This document shows positions 12,341 to 21,338 of a stretch of 32,715 nucleotides of DNA, one piece after another. Source of the stretch: Thermosipho sp. (in: thermotogales). GTDB lineage: Bacteria; Thermotogota; Thermotogae; Thermotogales; Fervidobacteriaceae. Positions within the stretch are counted from its first letter, which is position 1; the number at the start of each line of letters is the position of its first letter. Below the pieces are notes generated by a model. It had not been told where the DNA came from. It was given only the letters and a program-made list of their open reading frames with translations, and did not search any database. Where the stretch lies: positions 1-32,715 of the forward strand of contig JACDNZ010000020.1 in NCBI GenBank assembly GCA_017656345.1, given 5' to 3'. A program made the translations under genes and the position numbers.

Positions 12341-12727
12341 TCAAGAATTATAAAATTTATGATAAGCCACTAAAGCTTCGAAAAAATCCTTAAATCTCTT
12401 TAAAGCATCTTTATTACTCTCAGATATCACTAAAACCATGTTCTTAATTGATTCAGAGAAATCTTTTAAAACCTTTTCATTGTATCGATTAAGTGATCTA
12501 TAAATACTATAAAGAAAAACAGCCAAAAATTTCTTTGTTTCATATTTGAATTTATCATCGTCTAATGGTATTTTCTTGACCTCATTAAAAAATTTTCTTA
12601 ATTGATTTGAATTTACACTCTCAGATATATATTTTGCCAACTCTTCCGAATAACTAAACAGCAGCTTTCCTTCTTCATCTAACTTAGGATCCAGTATTTG
12701 TTCTGCTGTTTTCTTATCTATCAACAT
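12341..12727 (-). CDS. csm2: Type III-A small subunit Csm2
   Basis: Csm2 is the small helical subunit that lines the target-binding channel next to Csm3. The 128-residue, largely helical protein (LLFSYSEELAKYISESVNSNQLRKFF, then FLAVFLYSIYRS) matches the family's size and its usual place between cas10 and csm3. Small subunits diverge fast, so the call rests on position, length and the SNQLRKFF segment. It overlaps the cas10 3' end by 14 bases, with GGAGGGGG upstream of its ATG. Confidence 0.88.
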   Translation of the reverse strand: MLIDKKTAEQILDPKLDEEGKLLFSYSEELAKYISESVNSNQLRKFFNEVKKIPLDDDKFKYETKKFLAVFLYSIYRSLNRYNEKVLKDFSESIKNMVLVISESNKDALKRFKDFFEALVAYHKFYNS

Positions 12728-15038
12728 ATTCCCCCTCCTTCACCTCATACTCAACCCAATATGTAACTGAATAGAGATTATCATATAATTTGTTCTCATT
12801 TTTAAGAATTTTCTCCAAAAATTCCATAATTTTTCTTTTAGCATTTTTATATGATTCACCAAGCTTTGTAAAATAATAAAACAGTCTCCATACCCTGAAA
12901 AATTCACCTTGTTTTGATTGTTTATAATTCTCAAACATCATTCTCAGAATCCGAATAATATTCTTTGTGACTTTCATTTCAATTATTTCCTTCAAAGATT
13001 CTTTTATGTCGCAATACTTGTCAAATTCTTCCCAACCAATTATGTCGCCAAAAAAGTATAATGCATTTTTTGAAACACCATTTCTTTCATACTCCTTTGC
13101 CATATCAAGCTTTCTACCTGATTCATTTGCTACCCTATAAACAGGATATTTTCTTGCTGGAGCAACTTCAATTGCCATTGAAATTGAAATTGCTGGATTA
13201 TCTCCACAAAATTTTTTGAATTCATTTTCTAGCTTCCATGCTAAATATGGTAAATCACTCCAAGGCCCCAATATAAAGAAATCATCGCCACCAGAATAAA
13301 TAACACTACAATTTGGAAATTCATTCCTTATGATATCTTCTAAAAACTTTCCAAAAAATACCTCAATCTCCTGAGATAAAGTAGCTTTTTTAGAAAGTGG
13401 TACATTATTTCCTAAACCTATTCCAAAAATCTTTCCTAAATTATCAACATCCCCTCGTAACACCCCCCATTTTTTTATACCATTTGATTTGTAAGCAATT
13501 GTTTCCAAATCAGCTACTTTACCATCCTCAGTTTTCAAAACATAATTTGCTGATTTTATGTAAAATACATTATTTTTCAAGTCAATATTTTCAGCTTTTC
13601 TAATCAAAAATGCACCTTCTTTATCGCTACTGTAAAACTCTAATTTATAACCAAATGCTTTAAAAATATCGTTAATATTTTTAATCTTTTCTACTACATT
13701 TTCATATCTAACAAACTTAAAAGACTTCATTTTTACTAACTTATCTCCTAACTCTGCAAAAGAATCACAGAATTCACAAATTTCCTCTTTTAGTTTTCTA
13801 CGACAATAGGGGCATGAATCTTGTGAAATTGGCTTTAACTCAAAAATTTTCTCAGGCTTCGACAATATCAAAGATTCAAGTTTTCTATTTTTCTTTTCCT
13901 CCATTTTTCTTGAAATTTTTCCGTAAATATCCTCATTAAGTTCTTTAAAAGTAATTTTTTCACCAATTAAATTAACAACTAATTCCAAACCATGCGCATT
14001 AAACATAATCTCGTCAATCCTTCTTTGATACTCATCAAGTCTATCAATAGTTTTTGCTGGCACTAATAAGTAAAAATGGCCTCCACCATTATATAGAATA
14101 TTACTAATTGAAAGTCCTTCATTTTCAATGATGAACTTTGCTACAATTTCAAGCAAATAAGTTACGTAAAACGATCTTCCTCGTAATTTTTTAATAGCAT
14201 GCTCTTGTGAAACATTATAGATAAAACTTTGTATCCCTGAAACATCACCTTTAATGATTCCAAGAACTTGCAAATTTGTTGCTGAATCAACACTTTCCAA
14301 TTCGCTGAGTATAGCTTCATTATCATTGATTAATTCTTTCTCATATTGTTTAAAAATTGATACAGCAATAGCCGCTGTTGTGCTAAGATGTGAAAATAGC
14401 GAAATATCTGGTTCAGAATAATAAAATGCTGATGGAATATTCGAAGTAAACTCTTTAAGAACATAATACAAATGCTCAAATAATGGGGAAGAGATTTTTA
14501 TTTGTTCTTCATTATAATTTAAATATTTTTTCGATATGAAATTTATGGTTTCATTAAATTCCTCCCAAAGACTTCTATACGAAACCTCAACATTATTTTC
14601 TTCACTATTTAACAGTTCACCAAAAGTAGACAACTTTGTAATAGGTTTGTATTTACCTGTTTTTTTCTCACCAAATGAGACTAAAGATAACATTGATTTC
14701 ATATTTTTTATCTTCTCATCATACGAAGATGTTTCTGTTCTTTCTTCTGCAGATAAATGATCGGCTATCTTTACAATCCTTGATAAAATATTTCTAGGAT
14801 TATGATGATTTAAAATTGCTCCGCCAACCTCATCCTTAAAAGGAAGCCCAGAATTTTCATAAAAAAATGCTCCCCATTCCTGATGCCTTGGACCGTAAAC
14901 ACCTGCTTCATCTATAAAATACTTGTATCTTTCACTAACTTCTTTTTTCAACGAAGTAATATTTGCTCTCTGAAAAAATTTACCAATATCGTGAAAAATA
15001 CTCGCCAAAAAAACCTTCTCGGTAGATATTTTCCCCAT
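12714..15038 (-). CDS. csm1: Cas10/Csm1, HD nuclease and cyclic oligoadenylate synthase
   Basis: This is the large subunit and signal generator of the Csm complex. The N-terminal HD domain has H16-D17 in FHDIGKF, with further histidines in LNHHNPRN and ADHLSAEER, so target-activated DNase activity is plausible. A first cyclase-like domain contains NGGGHFYLLVP. A zinc ribbon CPYCRRKLKEEICEFC follows. The second palm domain has an intact GGDD at residues 583-586 (YSGGDDFFILG), the active site for making cyclic oligoadenylates from ATP. The 774-residue length is normal. GGGGTGA precedes the ATG. Intact GGDD agrees with two apparent cOA-responsive effectors directly upstream. Confidence 0.96.
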   Translation of the reverse strand: MGKISTEKVFLASIFHDIGKFFQRANITSLKKEVSERYKYFIDEAGVYGPRHQEWGAFFYENSGLPFKDEVGGAILNHHNPRNILSRIVKIADHLSAEERTETSSYDEKIKNMKSMLSLVSFGEKKTGKYKPITKLSTFGELLNSEENNVEVSYRSLWEEFNETINFISKKYLNYNEEQIKISSPLFEHLYYVLKEFTSNIPSAFYYSEPDISLFSHLSTTAAIAVSIFKQYEKELINDNEAILSELESVDSATNLQVLGIIKGDVSGIQSFIYNVSQEHAIKKLRGRSFYVTYLLEIVAKFIIENEGLSISNILYNGGGHFYLLVPAKTIDRLDEYQRRIDEIMFNAHGLELVVNLIGEKITFKELNEDIYGKISRKMEEKKNRKLESLILSKPEKIFELKPISQDSCPYCRRKLKEEICEFCDSFAELGDKLVKMKSFKFVRYENVVEKIKNINDIFKAFGYKLEFYSSDKEGAFLIRKAENIDLKNNVFYIKSANYVLKTEDGKVADLETIAYKSNGIKKWGVLRGDVDNLGKIFGIGLGNNVPLSKKATLSQEIEVFFGKFLEDIIRNEFPNCSVIYSGGDDFFILGPWSDLPYLAWKLENEFKKFCGDNPAISISMAIEVAPARKYPVYRVANESGRKLDMAKEYERNGVSKNALYFFGDIIGWEEFDKYCDIKESLKEIIEMKVTKNIIRILRMMFENYKQSKQGEFFRVWRLFYYFTKLGESYKNAKRKIMEFLEKILKNENKLYDNLYSVTYWVEYEVKEGEYVDR

Positions 15039-15052
15039 ACTTTCACCCCTTA

Positions 15053-16429
15053 TTAAATCCGTCTTGATATACTAATAATTTTGCCAACATCTGGAATTAT
15101 GTACACATTATTATCTGTTTTATGAATTTTAAAAGTTTTATTTGACATACCAGCATGAGCCAAAAAGTTTCTTTTCTCATCATATGTCGGATCAAACTTA
15201 TTTGTTGAAAAATCCTTTAAAACTAATGCATTAAAATTTTTCAAATCAAAATCAAATATACCTTTCTCTAATTTCGAAATGTAAAACTCCAGTTTCTTTA
15301 TTTCTTTGTTTAAGAAAATTGAAACCTGGGTATTATTACTACTGTTTTTCTCAACCTTCCAAATGCTTTCCGTTATTTCTTTTAATTTCTCAAATGTAAT
15401 GTTATCCAGCTTTACTTCCCCAAAAATTCTTTCAAAATATTGTCTAAACAAATCAGCGAAAATTATATTCTTTACTCCTTCTAAAATCTTTAATTTGCGG
15501 ACAATTCTATATTTGTTATCTTCAAATTTCACAGTAGCTATACCTGTTTTATACGTATTAAAAATCTCTTCCATCAATTCAGCATAATTAACTTTTTTTA
15601 CCATCAAAATAAGCAAAAGCGGTAATCCATAATAAATAGATTTCAACATTAAAAATGAATTCTCAAATATACTTTCAATTTTTCCCTTAACTAAATTTCT
15701 TACCCTTTTTTCAAAAATTCCTAAAACCTTTTTACCAAACTCTTGCTTTTCATTCTTAGTAACTTCATCAATAAACTCAAAAAACTTATTTTTAGACTCA
15801 ACATTAAAATTAATGTTGGGAGAAATTTCACTGTTTTCAATAACATGAACATTTAAATAATTAATTTGTTTTTCATTTTTTAAATATATTGGTTCAGAAT
15901 TAGTAACAATCAATTTCACATGCTTGAAATAAGCTAAAAGTTGTAAAACATCAATTAAAGCCCGATATAAAATATTTGATTGAAAATTTATACCAAAAGT
16001 AATATCAAACACAACCTCCAATTTTTCAGAATTAAGCACATCTTCGCTGGAAAATATCTTATACAAGTAATACAAAGTCATAAAATACGAATCTGTTATA
16101 GCCCCACGATATTCATATTTTCCATCATTAAATGTACCAACCCCAGGAATAACAAACATATCAAAATTGCTAATTTGAGCATGAGTCCTGAAATACTCAG
16201 AATAATCCTCTTTAAGTAGGTTAATTAACTGTTCGTAATCAAAACCATTTATATCAAAAGAAACTAAAGTATCTAAAATAAACACTGATGTTTTTTCGAT
16301 ACCAAAAAAATCAATTAACGTTTTTGGAAGAAAATTCCCATGAGCTTCCATTTCATCAAATTTCATATAATACTTGACATTATCCTGATAAATTTTTTTC
16401 AACCCTAACATTGTAATCAAAAGCTTCAT
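15053..16429 (-). CDS. csx1: Csx1/Csm6-like CARF-HEPN ribonuclease
   Basis: This ancillary type III effector should bind cyclic oligoadenylate with its N-terminal CARF domain and degrade RNA with its C-terminal HEPN domain. The CARF part opens with MKLLITMLGL and contains FDITFGINFQSN (residues about 138-150), typical of the Csx1 group. Near the C-terminus the HEPN motif RNFLAH provides R420 and H425 (R-x4-H). At 458 residues it is in the usual size range. Its ATG directly follows the calpL stop, with GGGGGAG upstream, and cas10 begins 14 bases after it. The name could equally be given as Csm6-like, since the families intergrade. Confidence 0.9.
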   Translation of the reverse strand: MKLLITMLGLKKIYQDNVKYYMKFDEMEAHGNFLPKTLIDFFGIEKTSVFILDTLVSFDINGFDYEQLINLLKEDYSEYFRTHAQISNFDMFVIPGVGTFNDGKYEYRGAITDSYFMTLYYLYKIFSSEDVLNSEKLEVVFDITFGINFQSNILYRALIDVLQLLAYFKHVKLIVTNSEPIYLKNEKQINYLNVHVIENSEISPNINFNVESKNKFFEFIDEVTKNEKQEFGKKVLGIFEKRVRNLVKGKIESIFENSFLMLKSIYYGLPLLLILMVKKVNYAELMEEIFNTYKTGIATVKFEDNKYRIVRKLKILEGVKNIIFADLFRQYFERIFGEVKLDNITFEKLKEITESIWKVEKNSSNNTQVSIFLNKEIKKLEFYISKLEKGIFDFDLKNFNALVLKDFSTNKFDPTYDEKRNFLAHAGMSNKTFKIHKTDNNVYIIPDVGKIISISRRI

Positions 16430-17869
16430 TTAACTCCCCCTTATTTCTTCAATCTTATATACTTCTATATAAGTTCCTGTAGTTTTATCAAAATGAAAAA
16501 TTGAACCTTTTGAAAAATCACCATAGGCCATGCCTATCCCTAAAGCTAATGGTACAGGACAGCTAAGGAAAAAATACACTTTATTACACTTTGTTTCAAA
16601 ATGAATATTCTGGGTTATTGACATAATCTCCGAAACAAATTCATCCCATCTTACTGGTGGAAGAGATCCACCACCGGCCTTAGGCTCAATAAGCACAACT
16701 TTGGAATTTAAGTTATTAGTTCTAATATAATCTAAGACACTGTCATATAAATTATGCGAAGCAAGATAAACAACAAAAGCACAATTTTCACCATTACCTG
16801 TTATGGAATATTTTAAATGCTTATATTTTTTGACTATAGTCTTTATTTTTCTTACATTATCAGTCAAATCAATAACGGGAAAATATTTCCCCTGTTTGTG
16901 ATATACAACCAAAGGATTCTGTGCCCCTATTGCAATTCCTAGTCCCATTGCCAAAGCCGCAGGCCCAATGATAGCAATGTGTGGAATTCCTTTATTGGAA
17001 ATCACTTGATATACAACTCTATATAATTCATTCAATATTTTTCCCCATTCATTCTTATTAATTTCTTTTCTTACATAAACTCTTTTAGTATCGTATATTC
17101 TTTCAAATAAATTAATAAACTTCATTGGAAAATTCCTTGAAACTTCTTCCTTTAAATCCATATAGGCTGCTTCTATATAATCATCATTAAATTCTTTAAG
17201 AACCAAAAGAATTGGTATATGATATTCTTTTGCTTCAAAAAACTCTTTTAGTTCAAAAATATTATCAACATCAAATGCAGTAATTAATTTCAAGTTATTC
17301 TGTTGAGAAATCTCTTCTTTAAAACTTAAAAATTCTAAATTTTTCTTTACAGTACCATCTAAAGCAACTTCGCCAGAAAAAGCTAAATTACTTGGTATTC
17401 TTTTTGTTAAAGCAGCTATTGAAACTGCCATTTCGAATGAATTACCACTAAAATTACTATCAAAAATAACACCTAATTTTTTCCCAACTATCTCCTCTAT
17501 TTTTTTTATTTCATTCTCTACGTCTGAAATATTCGTAAATGTATCACTTGTCTCAAACACCATTACTTTAACAACCTTCCCTCTGCCAGAACCATTCACA
17601 ATAGGGAATTTTGCTTCTACATAATCATTCCTGTAAAAATCAAAAATAATTTCTTCATTATTTTCAAAAAACTGCTTCAGCAAACTTTCCGGAATAGTTT
17701 TTTCTTTTTTCTCATGCATTTTTTTCATAATTTCATAAAAAACTTTATTCTTTTCGGAGATATTTTTTAACTTCAAATACGCCTCAATTGCTTCTCGAAT
17801 GGTAAGTTGATCAATTTTCAAAAAATATAAAAAATCTTCCAAACTATTTTTTAAAACATTTGAGTACAT
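16430..17869 (-). CDS. calpL: CalpL, SAVED-Lon protease effector of type III CRISPR
   Basis: CalpL is a CRISPR-associated Lon protease. In Sulfurihydrogenibium it binds cA4 through a SAVED domain, oligomerises and cuts CalpT, freeing the sigma factor CalpS. Here residues about 100-240 resemble the Lon proteolytic domain: SGNSFEMAVSIAALTKRIPS supplies the likely nucleophile S144, followed by FSGEVALDGTV and K184 in LSFKEE as the dyad lysine. The 40-residue separation fits Lon. Residues about 295-470 form a SAVED domain (HIAIIGPAALAMGLGIAIGA, then FFLSCPVPLALGIGMAYGDF). There is no AAA+ module. TGATG joins it to calpT, with GAGGTGAT as ribosome site, so the two are coupled. Both catalytic residues are present, so activity is expected. 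Confidence 0.9.
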   Translation of the reverse strand: MYSNVLKNSLEDFLYFLKIDQLTIREAIEAYLKLKNISEKNKVFYEIMKKMHEKKEKTIPESLLKQFFENNEEIIFDFYRNDYVEAKFPIVNGSGRGKVVKVMVFETSDTFTNISDVENEIKKIEEIVGKKLGVIFDSNFSGNSFEMAVSIAALTKRIPSNLAFSGEVALDGTVKKNLEFLSFKEEISQQNNLKLITAFDVDNIFELKEFFEAKEYHIPILLVLKEFNDDYIEAAYMDLKEEVSRNFPMKFINLFERIYDTKRVYVRKEINKNEWGKILNELYRVVYQVISNKGIPHIAIIGPAALAMGLGIAIGAQNPLVVYHKQGKYFPVIDLTDNVRKIKTIVKKYKHLKYSITGNGENCAFVVYLASHNLYDSVLDYIRTNNLNSKVVLIEPKAGGGSLPPVRWDEFVSEIMSITQNIHFETKCNKVYFFLSCPVPLALGIGMAYGDFSKGSIFHFDKTTGTYIEVYKIEEIRGS

Positions 17870-18648
17870 CAGTGTATCACCTCTATTTTTAGATATCTTA
17901 ATATATCAGATTTTGACAATCCTTTAATATTTTCCACTATGAAAACCTCTGGAATAACTCCTTCAAAAATTTTTTCATTTCTAAAATAAATTTTTCCTTT
18001 TTTTCCAGCTAACTCATCTTCTGGATATAACCTCAAAATTTCTCCATCAATAATCCCGAGGAAATTTTCACCTCTTATTCCCTGTGTAGCTGCTACTAAC
18101 AATTCTTCATTATAATTTTCAATCAAATGTCTGGGAAAGCTGATTCTTATTATCTTCTCTTCTTCTGATATCTTCTCTTCCATTTTTGTGAAAAACAAAT
18201 CATAAAGTGGTAAAAGCTTTTCAGTTTCTAAGTTAAAAAACTCTTCACGTGGACCTGTATAGATTTCTTCACTTAAAAATTCTAAATTATCTCTAATTTT
18301 TTTGATATCTTTATAATCACTTACTTTTTCACAATATAAGCTACTAAAATCTTCAAACATATAAAAAACAATGTGAGTTAATGCAACTTCTTCAGCCAAA
18401 TGCCCAATTTTTATCCTTAAAGCTCCCGGACTTGCTAAAAAGAGTTCTGGAGTTAGATATACACATTCATTTAAATCTTCGTTTTTATCAATCACAATTC
18501 CATATATTGGAAAATAATTAGTGTATATGACAAAAATATCACCAATATTTAATGGTAAACCATCTGTTGGTTTAAATGTAATAGTATTCAAATCGATATT
18601 TCCAGTAAATTTTTTGTACATTTCCAGTTCCTTTTTTAGAAATTCCAT
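17869..18648 (-). CDS. calpT: CalpT-like MazF-fold anti-sigma and protease substrate
   Basis: In the described system CalpT is a MazF homologue that holds the sigma factor CalpS and is the substrate of CalpL. The identification here rests on position between calpS and calpL, a fitting size (259 residues) and a MazF-like barrel segment (LPLNIGDIFVIYTNYFPIYGIVID, then CVYLTPELF). A helical middle with many acidic residues leads to a second small beta domain (NFLGIIDGEILRLYP, GKKGKIYFRNEKIFEG). No RNase residues of MazF are obvious, so it is probably not a toxin. I chose the ATG at 18648, with GGGAGG five bases upstream and 16 bases after the calpS stop. A longer frame from 18702 would overlap calpS. 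The cleavage site cannot be read from sequence. Confidence 0.75.
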   Translation of the reverse strand: MEFLKKELEMYKKFTGNIDLNTITFKPTDGLPLNIGDIFVIYTNYFPIYGIVIDKNEDLNECVYLTPELFLASPGALRIKIGHLAEEVALTHIVFYMFEDFSSLYCEKVSDYKDIKKIRDNLEFLSEEIYTGPREEFFNLETEKLLPLYDLFFTKMEEKISEEEKIIRISFPRHLIENYNEELLVAATQGIRGENFLGIIDGEILRLYPEDELAGKKGKIYFRNEKIFEGVIPEVFIVENIKGLSKSDILRYLKIEVIH

Positions 18649-18664
18649 ACTAACCTCCCAAAAA

Positions 18665-19318
18665 TCAGCTTGACTTTCTACTTCTAGTACGTATTTTTTC
18701 ACATATTTCTGACATATATATTCTTATCGCTAATGCAAATTCTTTATCGTTTATACCATTTTCTTTTATAAGCTCTCGTAAACTCTCTTTTACCCTTTGT
18801 ACAATTTTGTATTTTGCATTTCGTGTTTTTTCCTCGAATAAAATTTCTTCTGAATACATGACTTTATACAGATAATAACAAAGATGCTCCTCATTTAATT
18901 TTTTTAATTCCTCCACAAATGCTTCTGCAACAATTTCCCATTCAGGTTTATAATGTTCTTCAGTTTGCTTGAAATACTCAATCTGTTCAACGTCATCTTT
19001 ATTTTCTCTATTTAAAGATTCATTAATGGGATTCTTTCTCATGACATCAATAATATGATTTTTCATCAAAATATATAAATACCCTTCCAGATTATTGCCT
19101 ATTTTGTCCCGTAAAATTTCTTTTTTTAACTTTAATTTTATAAATATTTCGTTTAGTAGTTCATTCAGAGCAGAATCAATATTACCAAAAATACCAATTA
19201 AAATTTCCTTATATCCTGGATTGGTACTCACAACAGTCAATATCATATTCTTTATTTCTAACAATAAACTTTCCGTAATAACATTGTTCTCAAGATAATC
19301 ATTTAAAAGTCTTTTCAC
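18665..19318 (-). CDS. calpS: CalpS-like ECF-type sigma factor
   Basis: This predicted sigma factor is the output of the Calp relay: once CalpT is cut, it should bind RNA polymerase and switch on a set of promoters. Sigma region 2 is visible as ALNELLNEIFIKLKLKK followed by GYLYILMKNHIIDVMRK, which matches the classic LVQEVFLKL / WLYRIARNxAIDxxR pattern. An acidic linker (NKDDVEQIEYF) and a helical C-terminal part ending in a basic tail (KIRTRSRKSS) follow. Region 4 is weak. I place the start at the GTG at 19318, five bases after the stop of the upstream gene. A Met at 19372 would give a 49-base overlap. A degenerate GGGGTGG is the only ribosome site. Confidence 0.8.
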   Translation of the reverse strand: MKRLLNDYLENNVITESLLLEIKNMILTVVSTNPGYKEILIGIFGNIDSALNELLNEIFIKLKLKKEILRDKIGNNLEGYLYILMKNHIIDVMRKNPINESLNRENKDDVEQIEYFKQTEEHYKPEWEIVAEAFVEELKKLNEEHLCYYLYKVMYSEEILFEEKTRNAKYKIVQRVKESLRELIKENGINDKEFALAIRIYMSEICEKIRTRSRKSS

Positions 19319-19323
19319 CTCAG

Positions 19324-19749
19324 TTACCACCCCATTAGAAATTCTTGTATGCTTTTCTTGCAAGTTCCACAAACAACAAAATATCTTTTCAAAACATACT
19401 TTGGTAATTTAAACTTTTTTCTTACACCATATTGAAAAAGAAATGATTCCATTTTCTGAAATCTACAAAATTCATCTTCGTTTATTACACAAAATATACT
19501 AATATTAATCGGCTTTTTAGAGTAATTCTTTGTTGATAAAAATATAAATCTATAATAATTATTTTTATAAGGCTCAACAATAATAGGTCTTCTCTTTCTT
19601 ATCATAACTTTTGATTTCCAAATTGCATCTAAGTTATCCAATAACTTAGATAATTCCTTTAAATGATCTACATAACCTATTAAAGTTTTGTATTCCAATT
19701 TAGTAAATTTATCTGTTTCTTCAAACAATTCTTTTATTAATTTAACCAT
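19324..19749 (-). CDS. Unknown 141-residue protein leading the Calp cluster
   Basis: I do not recognise this protein. The first half is helical and charged. The second half is beta-rich and begins MIRKRRPIIVEPYKNNYYRF, in which RKRRPIIVEP loosely recalls the (K/R)RRPVLV strand of MazF/PemK-type proteins. It ends with a CGTCKKSIQEFL segment whose CxxC could bind metal or form a disulfide. It is the first gene after an extended -10 promoter, AAAGGTG precedes its ATG, and it lies five bases upstream of calpS, so it is very probably co-expressed with the Calp genes. The published Calp operon was described with three proteins, so this could be a fourth component, an additional regulator or an unrelated passenger. 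Confidence 0.75.
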   Translation of the reverse strand: MVKLIKELFEETDKFTKLEYKTLIGYVDHLKELSKLLDNLDAIWKSKVMIRKRRPIIVEPYKNNYYRFIFLSTKNYSKKPINISIFCVINEDEFCRFQKMESFLFQYGVRKKFKLPKYVLKRYFVVCGTCKKSIQEFLMGW

Positions 19750-19780: not shown

Positions 19781-19798
19781 ATTATAACATAATTTTAC
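19781..19798 (-). promoter_or_regulatory. Extended -10 promoter before the Calp/Csm gene run
   Basis: On the minus strand TGTTATAAT (19789-19781) is a perfect -10 hexamer with the TG of an extended -10. It lies in the 52-base gap between cas2 and the 141-residue gene, about 32 bases before that gene's ATG. No strong -35 is present at 16-18 bases, which is tolerated at extended -10 sites. It would let the signalling and interference genes be transcribed separately from cas1-cas2. Confidence 0.6.
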
Positions 19799-19801
19799 AA
19801 T

Positions 19802-20080
19802 TCAAATAAAATTACTTGAAATTTTCCACTTTATCTTACCATCTATTTCTTTTTTGAATACCTCTTTTGAATTAAAAAAATAAATAATTACACTATCTTC
19901 CTCTGGAACAATTCTTTTATTTAATTCGCGCATCATTCTTTTTATACTTGCTTGCGTTAAGTTCCCTTCAAAAGTAGAATTTTGCTGCCAAATAGTGTAT
20001 TTTTTTAATAATTTATGTACTTTGTTTACTCTTTTTTCATTTACATCATATACCACTAAAACATACCTTATAAATATCAC
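19802..20080 (-). CDS. cas2: Cas2 spacer-acquisition protein (downstream copy)
   Basis: Cas2 dimers bridge two Cas1 dimers in the spacer-integration complex. The 92-residue protein has the ferredoxin-like opening YVLVVYDVNEKRVNKVHKLLKKYT, then QNSTFEGNLTQASIKRM and the EEDSVIIYFF strand, all typical. It starts at a GTG overlapping the cas1 stop in a GTGA, so translation is coupled. The five residues before YVLVVYD are unusual, and the real start could be later. It is one of two cas2 genes, one on each side of cas1. Confidence 0.93.
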   Translation of the reverse strand: MIFIRYVLVVYDVNEKRVNKVHKLLKKYTIWQQNSTFEGNLTQASIKRMMRELNKRIVPEEDSVIIYFFNSKEVFKKEIDGKIKWKISSNFI

Positions 20081-21074: not shown

Positions 21075-21338
21075 CTAAATTAATTTTGAAATAGTTACAT
21101 CAGGTTTCCCTATAATTTTTCTATACGGAACAAATTCAGGATTTAATATATACCAATATACTGAATCCTCATCTTCAACAATTAAATTTTTTATTTTTGA
21201 ACGTAATATTCTAAAGTTCTTTTCAGTAATTCTCCCTTCAAAAACTGATCTTTGAACCCATTTTAAATATTTTCTTGCTACTTTTAAAACCTTTTGAACT
21301 CTTTTTTTATTCACATCATAGATCATAATTACATACAT
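21075..21338 (-). CDS. cas2: Cas2 spacer-acquisition protein (upstream copy)
   Basis: This 87-residue Cas2 opens with YVIMIYDVNKKRVQKVLKVARKY and continues with VQRSVFEGRITEKNF and DEDSVYWYIL, matching the family closely. GAGGTGG lies four bases before the ATG. It is the first gene of the cas run, 11 bases upstream of cas1, and differs clearly in sequence from the other cas2 (for example WVQRSVFEG against WQQNSTFEG). The two copies are therefore not a recent duplication and may form homodimers or a heterodimer. Confidence 0.93.
   Translation of the reverse strand: MYVIMIYDVNKKRVQKVLKVARKYLKWVQRSVFEGRITEKNFRILRSKIKNLIVEDEDSVYWYILNPEFVPYRKIIGKPDVTISKLI

Follow-up and report, generated by a model that had tools for sequence, protein, structure and literature searches.

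Calp is a model system for the communication between type III CRISPR immunity and transcription. The first account of its protease, CalpL, was reportedly titled "SAVED by a toxin," a reference to the resemblance of CalpT to MazF. CalpT23 is structurally similar to MazF (PMC9704534). Calp is described as a tripartite complex of CalpL, CalpT, and CalpS in the available portions of PMC11417357, PMC12751052, and PMC11229360, which do not name the protein considered here, ORF141, as a component; the original 2023 Nature paper may mention it. Since the complex is described without ORF141 in the accessible part of PMC11417357, this protein appears not to be needed for the Calp core.

ORF141 is encoded by a contig of Thermosipho sp. 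(GCA_017656345.1, contig JACDNZ010000020.1), of which positions 1 to 32,715 were analyzed. This whole stretch of 32,715 nucleotides is referred to as the window. ORF141 comprises 141 codons with an ATG start (19324..19749), and it lies on the minus strand, as do the following genes. The ECF-type sigma factor gene calpS, with a GTG start (18665..19318), gave a weak Pfam match to Sigma70_r2, and its product is homologous to CalpS of the founding operon according to profile matches. The gene for the MazF-like anti-sigma factor, calpT (17869..18702), probably has its conserved Met start at 18648; its product matched the CalpT10 chain of PDB 8b0u (E 0.004) and the PADLOC family CRISPR-T (E 1.5e-38). 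The gene for the Lon-SAVED protease and cA4 sensor, calpL (16430..17869), was assigned by a phmmer match to CalpL of PDB 7qda (E 6e-39) and by Pfam SAVED (E 8e-13). It is followed by csx1 (15053..16429), encoding a CARF-HEPN ribonuclease co-effector (Pfam Csx1_CARF, E 1.6e-20; Csx1_HEPN, E 1.8e-6), and by cas10/csm1 of the type III-A locus (12714..15038; Pfam Csm1_B and Cas10 palm), the source of cyclic oligoadenylate. Judged by these matches, the neighbors of ORF141 are a real Calp set, consisting of CalpL, CalpT with its CalpT10 domain, and CalpS, whose gene adjoins calpT. The window also contains two clearly different cas2 genes, one on either side of cas1 (19802-20080 and 21075-21338); they are approximately 43% identical over 77 residues, and the same arrangement was seen in several relatives (L035-L038). 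At the contig edge (11-1944), a transposase/ATPase pair resembles istA/istB of IS21 by eye.

The founding operon of Sulfurihydrogenibium sp. YO3AOP1 was recovered as locus L114 (genome G203). Its CalpL does not differ from the crystallized protein (7qda) at any of the 461 residues compared, and its CalpT aligns with the complete CalpT10 chain of 8b0u (76 residues; E 2.8e-43). The window resembles this operon in its CalpL, CalpT, and CalpS families, in their order, and in their location beside type III cas genes. It also shares ORF141, a homologue of which is located directly upstream of calpS in the founding operon, whereas Calp of this organism is described, in the portions of the papers mentioned above, with three proteins. 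The sequence of the junction, GGATAATGTCA, suggests that the TAA stop of the ORF141 homologue overlaps the ATG of calpS. Because ORF141 precedes calpS nearly everywhere, the founding operon included, reconstituted Calp may lack a component.

The sequence-only reading had proposed ORF141 as a possible fourth component of Calp with faint MazF-like features, and both parts of this proposal gained support, from the linkage to calpS and the founding operon and from the fold and motif described below. Among 103 genomes of Thermotogota, 12 contained matches to the ORF141 profile, and all 12 copies were directly upstream of calpS-calpT. Full-length CalpT was present in 14 Thermotogota genomes, and 12 of these 14 carried the ORF141 homologue directly before calpS. 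A six-frame reading of the upstream regions did not reveal it in the other two, G022 and G008; calpL of G022 is split over two frames, and the locus of G008 is divergent. In Aquificota, the CalpL profile was found in 65 of 136 genomes. We fetched 40 loci, 37 of which include calpS, and every one of these 37 showed a same-strand ORF of 127 to 234 aa immediately before calpS, typically overlapping it by a few bases. The Thermotogota profile matched 33 of the 37 upstream ORFs at E < 0.05. The remaining four (L130, L133, L134, and L141) were kept out of a rebuilt profile, which then recovered them with E values of 3e-27 to 3e-9. ORF141 adjoined calpS in 49 of 51 loci that had been selected by CalpL or CalpT and not by ORF141 itself. 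Two further loci were chosen by a CalpL-like Lon protein, one with ORF141 (L202) and one without (L203). Three loci (L063, L064, and L203) keep calpS, calpT, and calpL-like genes while ORF141 is missing.

The reverse search, starting from ORF141, gave the same picture: essentially all homologues adjoin calpS, and the outcome named in advance by the sequence-only reading as refuting its proposal, homologues mostly remote from calp genes, did not occur. The fetched copies with visible flanks were all at calpS (L187 and L193 end at contig edges), except for an 80-aa N-terminal remnant in G132 (L185:5604-5846); the 12 kb retrieved for this locus contain no calp gene, and the remnant probably survives from a Calp operon that has been lost. 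Matches lacking calpS in the first search for relatives (L012-L016, L018, L020, and L021) were due to chance and disappeared in the profile search. Neither the Thermotogota profile in IMG/VR nor the window protein in PLSDB yielded phage or plasmid copies, respectively. The survey covers Thermotogota and Aquificota; a single genome-wide scan with CalpL patterns gave only 4 loci. Pairwise distances of ORF141 correlate with those of CalpS, CalpT, and CalpL (r 0.72-0.73), which shows, at the level of sequence distances, co-inheritance that singles out no one partner. With a member immediately before calpS in 37/37 loci of Aquificota and 12/14 of Thermotogota, the ORF141 family is a conserved, co-inherited fourth cistron of Calp.

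This cistron immediately precedes calpS across the two phyla, in III-A as well as in other type III contexts, and in almost every locus its distance to calpS is between approximately -60 and +8 nt. In one Thermotogota clade (clade B; L039-L043), calpS-calpT-ORF141 occupies one end of the type III locus and calpL the other, approximately 10 to 12 kb away, and in L039, L040, and L042 a CARF-type effector gene takes the place of calpL downstream of calpT. Four related Aquificota genomes (L136:3903-4840, L186, L195, and L196) carry tandem copies of ORF141, of 148 and 155 aa, before calpS. Two genes for dynamin-like GTPases are located between the cas1-cas2 block and ORF141 in L036 (11754-15366; G007).

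In the window, the TAA stop of ORF141 (19326-19324) is followed by CTGAG and then by GTG (19318-19316), the probable start of calpS; the spacing of five bases reported from sequence inspection is thus right. The gap between cas2 and ORF141 is only 52 nt. It had also been claimed that the cluster has its own promoter before ORF141. An extended -10 element, TGTTATAAT (19781..19789, minus strand), is located in this gap to cas2, directly upstream of ORF141 at the promoter-proximal start of the calp operon, although it escaped a generic scan for sigma-70 promoters. TGnTATAAT occurred within 120 bases upstream of ORF141 genes in 15 of 57 non-redundant loci, the window included, compared to a mean of 0.3 and a maximum of 3 in 200 shuffles. 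The promoter claim holds given this enrichment, and ORF141 is therefore often the promoter-proximal cistron. By its sequence, the promoter looks like a housekeeping promoter.

The ORF141 frame is more than a chance ORF, as judged by its retention in more than 60 loci of two phyla at a mean identity of approximately 21%. Searches of Pfam and NCBIfam with single members and with 43 members, as well as PDB sequence searches with both family profiles, returned only chance matches. A 43-sequence AlphaFold2 prediction gave a barrel with a pLDDT of 89.2 and a pTM of 0.80, and all five models reached at least 86.8. Foldseek found no significant match in the PDB for this model or for a separate, earlier one built from 10 sequences. 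With VIA-align, the best 50 of 701 candidate chains all had the MazF, CcdB, or ToxN/CptN fold, with Z scores of 3.5 to 6.2, values that are moderate and that a shared small barrel alone could explain. The best match among those listed was E. coli MazF (5ckd_A; Z 6.2, rmsd 3.4, 89 residues aligned), in an alignment that spans model residues 21 to 141. The 10-sequence model gave the same fold picture. Since the Z scores are moderate, our assignment of ORF141 to a predicted MazF/CcdB-class barrel relies on the match list being uniform and on the active-site motif. The CxxC of the Sulfurihydrogenibium member also gave a weak thioredoxin-like match (E 0.14 and above); as the modeled family fold is a barrel and not that of thioredoxin, we took this match to be due to chance.

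The catalytic residues of MazF are Arg25 and Thr48, and Ser replaces Thr in one homologue (PMC7354611). Aligning the 61-member ORF141 family with 19 MazF proteins from the surveyed genomes by hhalign gave P 5e-4, compared to 0.02 or worse for CRISPR-family controls; in this alignment, R54-P55 of ORF141 falls on the RP of MazF and S72-T73 on its T-T/S. R54 and P55 are each present in 61/61 members, and residue 72 is always Ser or Thr (61/61). The faint MazF likeness that had been seen in the C-terminal half is thus backed by fold, profile alignment, and motif invariance. The RKRRPIIVEP strand on which it was based is present and contains R54-P55. A terminal CxxC had been noted as well; it exists as C127-GT-C130, although it is 11 residues before the C terminus and not at the very end. 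C87 and C95 complete a Cys4 set with C127/C130. C87 is conserved in 61/61 members, C130 in 60/61, and the complete Cys4 in 53/61. All 46 members tested are basic, with a pI of 8.8 to 10.2 (mean, 9.4).

ORF141 thus resembles MazF/PemK (PF02452) in its barrel fold (VIA-align), in the RP and Thr/Ser catalytic positions, and in its small size. It differs in the C-terminal Cys4 with CGxC, which is absent from the aligned MazF proteins, and in its gene, which precedes a sigma factor gene with no MazE partner in view. In the loci read for gene content, no MazE-type antitoxin gene was located upstream; the neighbors there are cas2 or unrelated genes, with calpS downstream. The PF02452 HMM gave no match above the cutoff in 43 members. 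For these two reasons, we did not file ORF141 as a MazF; judged by sequence and model, it may well work like one. CcdB and the ToxN/CptN toxins belong to the same barrel class in the VIA-align fold list, but they have other targets and lower Z scores, and the dyad pattern of ORF141 fits MazF better.

CalpT is likewise called or predicted to be MazF-like and keeps the Thr/Ser, at T/S84 in 49/49 sequences. In contrast to ORF141, it is acidic (mean pI, 5.4), has Arg before the conserved P65 in 0/49 (positions are those of our own alignment), and carries the cleaved C-terminal CalpT10 domain. Going by these alignments, ORF141 keeps the Arg and Thr/Ser pair of MazF and CalpT keeps the Thr/Ser and has lost the Arg. 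The two families have no detectable sequence relation, and direct descent of ORF141 from CalpT was not supported by hhalign (E 0.13 and 0.034). The presence in ORF141 of the catalytic Arg that CalpT is missing makes a direct bench test possible.

Part of the family has been cataloged. PADLOC C3a162 (PDLC01080, "Unknown function") matches 15 of 43 members, best the Sulfurihydrogenibium member (E 2.3e-60) and the window ORF141 only with E 0.0095. Because C3a162 covers part of the family, its sequences are not new. The PADLOC entry differs from the present account in carrying no fold, function, or link to CalpS. Relative to it and to the available portions of the cited papers, what is new is the constant association of the family with CalpS, its occurrence in the founding operon, its fold, and its dyad.

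The conserved Arg and Thr/Ser dyad together with the high pI favor a nucleic-acid-acting, toxin-like role. From sequence and model, we assign a probability of about 0.5 to the reading that ORF141 is a fourth part of Calp and most likely a nucleic-acid-acting, RNase-type arm controlled by the Calp complex. In resting cells, ORF141 would be kept inactive in or by the coexpressed complex, most plausibly through the acidic CalpT. Once Cas10 makes cA4, CalpL cleaves CalpT. ORF141 would then be released or activated together with CalpS, and transcriptional reprogramming would be accompanied by the cleavage of RNA or an arrest of translation. The RNase activity, the partner, and the release upon CalpT cleavage are what we infer here. 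A more specific version is tentative: the CalpL cut would release two proteins, the sigma factor and ORF141, the latter an active MazF-type RNase braced by zinc that catalytically dead, MazF-like CalpT would have held as a heterodimer-like partner. If this were true, such a two-armed Calp would join cyclic oligoadenylate signaling, transcriptional reprogramming, and toxin release, and it would explain why CalpT itself is a relative of MazF. The presence in ORF141 of the Arg that CalpT lacks bears on the question of whether Calp protects by regulation alone or by toxicity as well.

R54-P55 and Ser/Thr72, known here from sequence, could have a structural rather than a catalytic role, and several explanations that call for no catalysis were weighed. 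It is possible, though rather unlikely, that ORF141 is a noncatalytic cofactor of CalpS, a basic MazF-fold protein with a zinc site that binds DNA or RNA and either assists the freed sigma factor in locating promoters or acts as a regulator of the operon. The very high pI in 46/46 tested members and the Cys4 in 53/61 suit such a protein. So does the tight coupling to calpS and not to calpL, with gaps of about -60 to +8 nt and with ORF141 still beside calpS in the Thermotogota clade in which calpL is approximately 10 kb away. However, simple binding does not require that precisely the two catalytic positions of MazF be invariant in 61/61 members.

Proteins with the MazF fold commonly form dimers. 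Together with the similarity of CalpT23 to MazF, the opposite charges of CalpT and ORF141, and translational coupling, this would suit a stoichiometric partner that forms a pair with CalpS or with the MazF-like domain in CalpT, acting as a decoy or co-anti-sigma factor that sets the threshold of sigma release. We regard such a structural partner or second regulator as improbable. The complex is described as tripartite in the accessible part of PMC11417357, L063, L064, and L203 lack ORF141 alone among the Calp genes, and tandem copies would be odd for a fixed-ratio subunit. Because it is absent from a few loci and duplicated in others, an RNase-type effector suits ORF141 better than a fixed structural subunit. 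Finally, ORF141 could be an accessory gene of type III loci that travels along with Calp but is functionally unconnected to it, consistent with the listing of part of its family as C3a162. This is strongly disfavored, to the point of being very improbable, by the fixed position before calpS in two phyla and in III-A as well as other type III contexts, and by the fact that the sole full-context copy without calpS is the 80-aa remnant.

Variants of the other Calp proteins were also observed. In Aquificota, L192 (2293-3975), L202 (3885-5600), and L203 (5752-7461) encode CalpL-like Lon/SAVED-like proteins of approximately 560 to 570 aa with a C-terminal STIV_B116/Csx16-like domain (PF08960, E 2e-19 to 2e-22; PADLOC Csx16), which belongs to the AcrIII-1/Crn2-type ring-nuclease family. 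The protein of L188 (6952-8643) looks the same. From the domain content, a self-limiting CalpL variant is possible. In one Thermotogota clade, small, separate ORFs similar to the CalpT10 part of CalpT alone are located near cas2/cas6 (L042:13868-14197, plus strand; L041:4911-5213, minus strand; and G016:C1:1083048-1083233), with profile E values of 2e-5 to 0.004; going by sequence, they are possible decoys or inhibitors of CalpL.
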